64,000 bases of DNA from Sphingomonas sp. (GTDB lineage: Bacteria > Pseudomonadota > Alphaproteobacteria > Sphingomonadales > Sphingomonadaceae), in contig NZ_JAFKMA010000001.1 of NCBI RefSeq assembly GCF_017304635.1, forward strand, positions 1,302,001-1,366,000, written 5' to 3'. Both the position numbers and the translations under genes were made by a program. The notes beneath the pieces are model-generated. The model was not told the origin of the DNA and did no database searches. It saw only the letters and a list, made by a program, of their open reading frames with translations. Shown one piece after another: positions 50,308 through 52,244 of the stretch (the first letter of the stretch is position 1; each line of letters opens with the position of its first letter).

Positions 50308-52229
50308 CTACATCACCGGCAACGTCACCCGCGACCCCGCGCACACGCGCTGCGTCGCCTTCACATACGCGCTCGCCGGCGCGCGGGCGATGTTGGGGAC
50401 GAAGCTCTGCGGGTTGCGGTCGATCATCGGGAACCAGCTCGACTGAACCTGCACCATGATGCGGTGGCCGGCCTTGAACACATGGTCGTGGTCGCGCAAC
50501 GGCACGTCCCAGGCGACCACCTTGCCCGGCACCAGCGCCTGCGGGACGGTGTCGCTGGCGAGGAAGCGCCCACGGCGGACCTCCATCGCGACCGGCAGCT
50601 GATAGCCGTTGAGCGTCCGCGCGTAATCGCCGACCTTGCCCGCCGCCGGCACCGTCCTGGTGTCGTAGTCGTACGGCAGCACGTCGATCAGCTTGACCAC
50701 GAAGTCGCTGTCGGTCCCGCTGGTCGAGGCGAGCAGCGTCGCCGCCAGACTGCCGGTCACGGTCAGATCATGGTCGAGCGGCGCCGATACGTAGCTCAGC
50801 ACGTCGGGGCGATGATCGACAAAGCGCTGGTCGTCCGACTCCCATGTCCGCCAGTCAGGCGACTGGTACGTGCCGGTCATCGGGCGCTGGCGGAACGGCA
50901 CCGGGTTGGCGGGATCGCTGACGTAATCGCGGCACCCCTCGCCCTTGGCCGGCGCGGTGAAGGACAGCGAGCCGTCGGCGTGGAGGTAGAGCGCGGTCGC
51001 CTTCGCGCCGGCCGGCGGCCACGCCTTGTACGTCTTCCACGTCCACGATCCCGACTGGAACATCTTCGCCCGGAAATCGGGCCGCTCGCCCTGCTGGTGC
51101 AGCCAGTAGCGGAAGAACGGCGCCTGGATCTGGTCCTGGAACTCGATCCCGCTCTCGACCGGCAACGGGATCGGGCCGAGCCGGTCGCCCTTTCCCTGCC
51201 AGCCGCCATGGTTCCACGGCCCCGCGACGATCTGCGCGAGGTGATCGGGGTCGTTCTTTGCCTGGCGGAAATAGATCTGCCACGACCCCCACGGATCCTC
51301 CTGGTCCCAGAATCCGGCGACGTTGAGCGTCGGCACCGTCGTCCGGCCCAGCGCCATCTGCCAGTTCTGGTCGGTATAGAAGGCGTCGTGGTTGGGATGG
51401 TCGAGCAGCGCCGAGTACATCGGCACCCGCCCCTTGAAGTAATCGCGGTCGATCGCCGCCGCGTTGCCCTCCTTCAGGAAGAAATCGTAGGTATCGGGGA
51501 CGGGATAGACGAAATCCTTGTTCTGGGTCTTGTCGAGCTGGAGCGAGGACACCCAGTCGGTCGCATAGCTCAGCCGCAGCGCACCGTTGCGATGGAGATC
51601 GTCCGACTGCCAGTAATCGATCCATGCCGCCTGCGGGCTGACCGCCTTCAGCGCCGGATGCGGGTTCGCCAGCGCGACGGCGGCGGCGAAGCCCGGATAG
51701 GACACGCCCCACATGCCGACGCGGCCGTTATTGTTGGGCACATGCTTCACCAGCCAGTCGACCGTGTCGTAGGCGTCGGTCGCTTCGTCATGCCGACGCG
51801 GCCGTTATTGTTGGGCACATGCTTCACCAGCCAGTCGACCGTGTCGTAGGCGTCGGTCGCTTCGTTCGGCTCGGTCTTCACCCCGGTCGAGAGGGTGAAA
51901 TTGCCGTCCGACTTGAACCGCCCGCGCATCGACTGGAAGACGAAGATGTAGCCGTCCTTCATCAGGCTGCCGAACCGCCCGGCGCTGGGCGGCGCCCCGG
52001 CGGGCACGCCATAGGGGGTGCGCTGGAGCAGGATCGGCAGCGCGTCGCTACGATCGCGCGGGCGCAGGATCACGGTCTGCAACTTCGCCCCGTCGCGCAT
52101 CGGGATCATGATCTCTTCGTAAGTGAAGGGCGATTGCTCTGCGGCGTTGACGGTCGTCTGCGCGCGAGCGACGAAGGAGAGCGGGACCAGCGCCGCGACC
52201 GTCGCCAACAGGACCATGGATTTACGCAT
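50308..52229 (-). pseudogene. CocE/NonD-family hydrolase gene, frameshifted by a 77-bp tandem duplication
   Basis: The 5' part (52229 down to about 51747, 160 codons) has a signal peptide (MRKSMVLLATVAALVPLSFVARA) and the CocE start (YEEIMIPMRDGAKLQTVILRP); the 3' part (51750 down to 50308, in another frame) carries GVSYPGF with the nucleophile Ser, and the C-terminal jelly-roll domain. The frames meet in an exact 77-bp tandem repeat (51712-51865). Removing one copy gives 1845 bases, a continuous 614-residue X-Pro dipeptidyl-peptidase/cocaine-esterase-type hydrolase. The intact protein would be secreted; substrate unknown. The lesion may be real, reversible, or an assembly error. Confidence 0.88.
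51712..51865. repeat. Exact 77-bp tandem duplication
   Basis: 51712-51788 and 51789-51865 are identical over 77 bases. Neither end can be extended, so the unit is exact. 77 is not divisible by three, hence the frameshift. Confidence 0.97.
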
Positions 52230-52244
52230 CGTCATCCCCTCTAC

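Follow-up and report, generated by a model that had tools for sequence, protein, structure and literature searches.

Structure of the interrupted hydrolase gene

The window analysed in this study is a stretch of 64,000 nucleotides from a Sphingomonas sp. genome, and forms part of contig C7 of an assembly (G000, referred to below as the own genome) of 3,183,506 bases in 7 contigs that is 99.9% complete. A CocE/S15 hydrolase gene, here named gene A, lies on the minus strand at 50308-52229 and is frameshifted by a 77-bp duplication, with the result that it is divided between two open reading frames in different frames, ORF1 (ATG at 52229, stop codon TGA at 51747-51749) and ORF2 (first start GTG at 51750, end at 50308). 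The features of the locus are listed below.

51747..52229, minus strand: N-terminal frame of gene A, with a signal-peptide-like start (by eye), matching positions 1-100 of the Peptidase_S15 profile (PF02129, 1.1e-25) and TIGR00976
50308..51788, minus strand: C-terminal frame of gene A, with the rest of Peptidase_S15 (PF02129, 5e-26) and PepX_C (PF08530, 6.3e-27); first possible start GTG at 51750
51700..51702, minus strand: codon of the gene A nucleophile Ser (MWGVSYPG), opposite which the alignment places the Ala of chain 1nx9 of alpha-amino acid ester hydrolase (AEH)
51747..51750, minus strand: GTGA, formed by the ORF1 stop codon and an overlapping GTG that is in frame with ORF2; candidate re-initiation point
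51712..51788, unstranded: copy 1 of the exactly duplicated 77-bp unit; on the minus (coding) strand it comes second
51789..51865, unstranded: 77-bp copy 2, identical to copy 1 and read first on the coding strand

Having entered the second copy, ORF1 continues in the wrong frame for 13 codons up to its TGA, and the edge of the duplication is separated from the nucleophile Ser codon by three codons. The motif GMWGVSYPG of gene A was aligned with GMTGSSYEG of AEH 2b4k and GMTGSAYEG of 1nx9, the latter being identified as the inactive S205A mutant in PMC3890990. TIGR00976 (CocE_NonD) and PF02129 were matched over the cut-off by the two pieces of gene A and by those of a second gene described below (gene B), and PF08530 was matched over the cut-off by the C pieces of the two genes. 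These matches (PF02129, PF08530 and TIGR00976) bear out the proposal of the first-pass annotation that a CocE-family gene is broken by the duplication. Among solved structures, the closest relative of the C piece of gene A was 4pf1 (S15/CocE/NonD, 4.7e-96), followed by AEH structures. The same annotation held that removal of one copy restores a gene of 614 codons; the arithmetic agrees if the ATG at 52229 is taken as the start, since (52229-50308+1-77)/3 gives 615 codons including the stop, but the figure depends on that choice and an in-frame ATG is also found at 52235.

The 77-bp tandem duplication

The array at 51712-51865 was reported by TRF with a period of 77, 2.0 copies and a 100% match, and a script check found 51712-51788 to be identical to 51789-51865, with the repeat extending 0 bases to either side; an exact 77-bp tandem duplication, as first described from the letters alone, is thus confirmed. 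Exact tandem repeats were searched for in 1,019,634 plus 240,000 bases of the own genome, taken stretch by stretch (arrays crossing stretch borders would be missed) and with C3:1-5000 (5,000 bases) masked, so that the sample screened for repeats and lesions amounts to about 40% of the genome. In the approximately 1.26 Mb scanned, the 77-bp array was the sole exact tandem repeat with a period of 25-600. No exact tandem repeat with a period of at least 20 was found in 420,495 bases of relatives (65 loci), and none with a period of 25-600 in 560,000 bases of the relative G028. Because no other such repeat was found in the scanned sequence of either the own genome or the relatives, the array is not a product of chance. 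Separately, short exact arrays that can be read with periods of 12, 18 and 24 were seen at two loci (L037 407-459 and L139 18955-19008).

The regions around the breakpoints share no word of at least 4 bp, and hence show no microhomology; just a 5-bp inverted match was found between them. Slippage at short repeats was rejected as the origin of the duplication, as no shared word of that length is present. A hairpin-driven duplication was also rejected, since the coding strand at 51690-51790 folds no better than its shuffles (z 1.01; 169 of 200 shuffles fold at least as well).

Gene A in related genomes

Gene A was inspected in 33 of the 65 loci (L063-L095), which include no second isolate of the species, and the 77-bp duplication was found in none of these 33 relatives. 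In 31 of them the N and C pieces stand in one frame and the 25 shared codons are present once. The remaining two are L074, in which the N part is missing at a contig end, and L081 (Sphingomonas sp. PP-CC-1A-547, genome G058), in which a 1-bp deletion in the N-terminal part (about 2857-2872) shifts the frame of gene A and the unit is single-copy. This deletion lies further upstream in gene A than the duplicated unit, and the open frame is 571; the presence of such an orthologue suggests that gene A may be dispensable. When the own genome and 99 relatives were searched with the two halves of gene A, 27 genomes contained both halves, and in these the halves overlapped on the target by about the length of the unit, as expected of a single copy (our own count).

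A second interrupted member of the family

The only other PepX_C gene found in the own genome, gene B, is an AEH homologue located on contig C1 (locus L148). Its C piece matches AEH 2b4k at 3.6e-175, and in comparison with the AEH structures (PDB 2b4k, 1nx9 and 1mpx) and 4pf1, gene B is close to AEH and gene A is more distant. An in-frame TAG interrupts gene B at L148 1864-1866 (G000:C1 about 367636-367638) in the context GMIGS*YEG. The N piece aligns up to residue 164 of the AEH chain, which places the stop at residue 165, the Ser that is Ala in 1nx9. All 29 gene B orthologues that were fetched carry Ser at the position of the TAG (28 in the main comparison and L158 via a looser pattern), and 39 orthologues that align with almost the full query at no less than 61% identity have open frames of at least 644 aa and match without a stop (our own count). 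Some rows of more distant family members contain one stop in the match; that of gene A is its terminal stop by coordinates, and the single stops in the others are taken to be terminal as well. Recoding of the TAG was considered and rejected, since TAG is an ordinary terminator that ends 57 of 250 called genes here and 68 of 234 in G028.

The Peptidase_S15 and PepX_C domains of the CocE/NonD, S15 family are likewise present in genes A and B. Members of that family have the GxSYxG motif and the N-terminal part in a single uninterrupted frame, whereas both genes A and B are interrupted at the nucleophile elbow. With the frame of gene A broken just before the Ser and a TAG at the Ser of gene B, the two are best described as gene remnants rather than as working members. 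A stretch of 36 bp inside the duplicated unit is 94% identical between the two genes (window 51823-51858 against G000:C1:367551-367586).

Family count and background of broken genes

Nine PF02129 matches at eight places were found in the own genome, two of which are the pieces of gene A, together with two PF08530 genes with open frames of 498 and 466 aa. By our own count, there are 65 PF08530 genes among 36 same-genus relatives, and 64 of these lie in frames of at least 587 aa, a count that covers frames across the PepX_C domain and from which lesions near a start could escape; the remaining one (G012:C261) lies in a frame of 293 aa that starts at the edge of a contig. Of the 36 relatives, 34 have one PepX_C gene or more, the two that have none being 83% and 79% complete, and the number of PF08530 genes per same-genus relative ranges from 0 to 9. 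Outside the genus, 3 of 23 PF08530 matches are in short frames (two in G072 and one in G069). The frameshifted gene A orthologue mentioned above (G058/L081) belongs to the genus and falls outside these 36 relatives. One relative has four PF08530 genes in a stretch of about 23 kb (G030:C23:318954-341976).

The background of broken genes was estimated by comparing 400 called genes of G028 with the sampled sequence of the own genome, which yielded 165 comparable genes under filters of 65% identity, 70% coverage and 20 aligned residues on each side of the stop, a screen that would miss lesions near gene ends. Six of the 165 were flagged, and upon inspection these comprised three misplaced starts, one neighbouring tandem paralogue and two real interior lesions, both in the hydrolases. 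In the reverse comparison, with G028 as the genome tested, 180 of 804 called genes were comparable and four were flagged, none of which was judged to be a clear interior lesion. A high background of broken genes was considered on the basis of a looser screen and rejected, as the genes that it flagged resembled, in their sequence context, shadow frames and misplaced starts, and the stricter screen left, on inspection, only the two hydrolases. With 0 of 163 other comparable genes broken, the 95% upper bound on the background is 1.8%, and since gene A was given beforehand, this bound is the appropriate yardstick for finding gene B broken as well. The link between the two genes was found after the fact, and the occurrence of a broken gene B beside gene A is suggestive, but not proof, of more than background.

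Age of the lesions

Amino-acid changes confined to the own branch were counted against those confined to a sister branch (own/sister). For gene A with L063 as sister, the counts were 19/22, 21/21 and 16/21 in the C part and 11/11, 12/13 and 12/12 in the N part, while taking G028 as the sister gave fewer changes on the own branch (29/46 and 29/45, and 7/20 and 8/17). The first-pass annotation gave a very recent duplication as one of three readings, and this one holds so far as gene A has no own-branch excess and thus no sign of long decay; judged from these counts, its lesion looks recent. For gene B, there was little own excess with the outgroups L160 and L161 (23/19 and 22/20; N part 9/8 and 10/9), and more own changes with L159 (28/17; N part 19/7); the control gene glpX gave 14/7 with both outgroups. 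The excess seen with L159 means that the loss of gene B may be older, and its lesion is probably recent or somewhat older.

Origin and meaning of the duplication

The duplication is best explained, with a probability of roughly 0.6, as a real, recent, single-event loss-of-function in an S15/CocE hydrolase, one of two independent lesions that leave no intact S15 plus PepX_C gene in the assembly. We infer that it exists in the cell and that a blunt 77-bp tandem duplication could have arisen, for example, by end joining after fill-in at staggered nicks; the genome has a Ku homologue at C2:115085-115624. The duplication shifts the frame, so that translation ends ahead of the catalytic Ser, 13 codons into the second copy, and the downstream part would be made solely by re-initiation, its product being expected to lack the signal-like start. 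Gene B is stopped separately by the TAG at its catalytic Ser codon. Spontaneous short tandem duplications occur as loss-of-function alleles, and the present case is like them in its exact head-to-tail copy, its frameshift and its absence from the relatives examined; it differs from them in having no breakpoint microhomology and in the second independent lesion in the sister gene. Gene A alone would be an ordinary pseudogene, while together with gene B it suggests that the strain recently lost the function of an enzyme family kept by 34 of 36 sampled congeners, which offers a testable case of parallel loss.

The duplication could instead be an assembly artefact, in which graph edges overlapping by k = 77 were joined untrimmed to give a blunt exact copy while the real gene is intact. 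A k of 77 is a default of SPAdes, a common assembler, and equals the length of the repeat; exactly 2.0 perfectly identical copies, blunt and without extension or microhomology, resemble an untrimmed k-mer overlap, and the unit is single-copy in 31 of 33 relatives. However, exact overlaps of 149 bp were found in two contig-end pairs (C1 start/C4 end and C1 end/C7 end) among the 13 readable ends, the start of C3 being masked, which suggests that the final overlap length was 149 bp and not 77 and that junction-spanning words of 149 should come from reads. Had a multi-k assembler been used, one of its earlier k steps could still have been 77. There are also no N gaps in the own sample apart from the masked C3:1-5000; an excess of 77-bp repeats, considered as a sign of k-mer artefacts, was rejected because no second repeat of this type was present in the approximately 1.26 Mb scanned; and a random assembly error would not be expected to strike a family of which the only other gene found is broken too. 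A k-mer join is disfavoured on these grounds, and we regard an artefact with an intact gene as unlikely. Among the matches listed in searches of the literature on k-mer artefacts, tandem-repeat deletion, duplication switches, blunt duplications, and CocE/AEH and Sphingomonas, neither this locus nor such an artefact was described. The first-pass annotation had also proposed a reversible phase switch, by which loss and gain of a copy between the 77-bp repeats toggles the hydrolase in a population. RecA is not required for recombination between identical direct repeats of this size, as a study of E. coli plasmids reports for repeats of 35 and 82 bp (PMC7063769), and loss of one copy by slippage is plausible, but that study describes hardly any expansion. 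In a single-copy gene there is neither a repeat nor flanking homology or a shared breakpoint word of at least 4 bp from which the duplication could be regenerated, so that regaining a copy would not be easy and a two-way switch is unlikely. Phase-variable loci have a repeat tract that is shared by strains or species and varies in copy number, whereas none of the relatives examined has the repeat; moreover, gene B is broken by a nonsense codon, and copy loss in gene A would give no family-wide switch. The switch was thus not borne out and is considered very improbable, and the case warns against taking every exact tandem repeat for a phase switch.

Returning to a real loss-of-function duplication, the loss of the activity may have been tolerated or favoured. 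Neutral decay, a sub-case of our preferred explanation whose odds overlap with it, would mean that both hydrolases were dispensable and lost by drift and that their coincidence is meaningless. The variation from 0 to 9 PF08530 genes among same-genus relatives and the 1-bp deletion of gene A in L081 are in accord with such decay, which is set against the lack of any interior lesion judged real in the 163 other comparable genes and the retention of at least one PepX_C gene in all but two same-genus relatives, whose genomes are the 83% and 79% complete ones; we consider it possible, at well below even odds. Rather doubtful is the reading that selection removed an S15/AEH-type activity, to which the independent knock-out of two family genes on different contigs, both within 4 codons of the catalytic Ser, would point. 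Were it true, the activity itself would have become harmful, for example by activating an ester- or peptide-masked antibiotic in the niche. Both lesions may lie within 4 codons of the nucleophile by chance; for the edge in gene A alone, such a position has a probability of about 1.5%.
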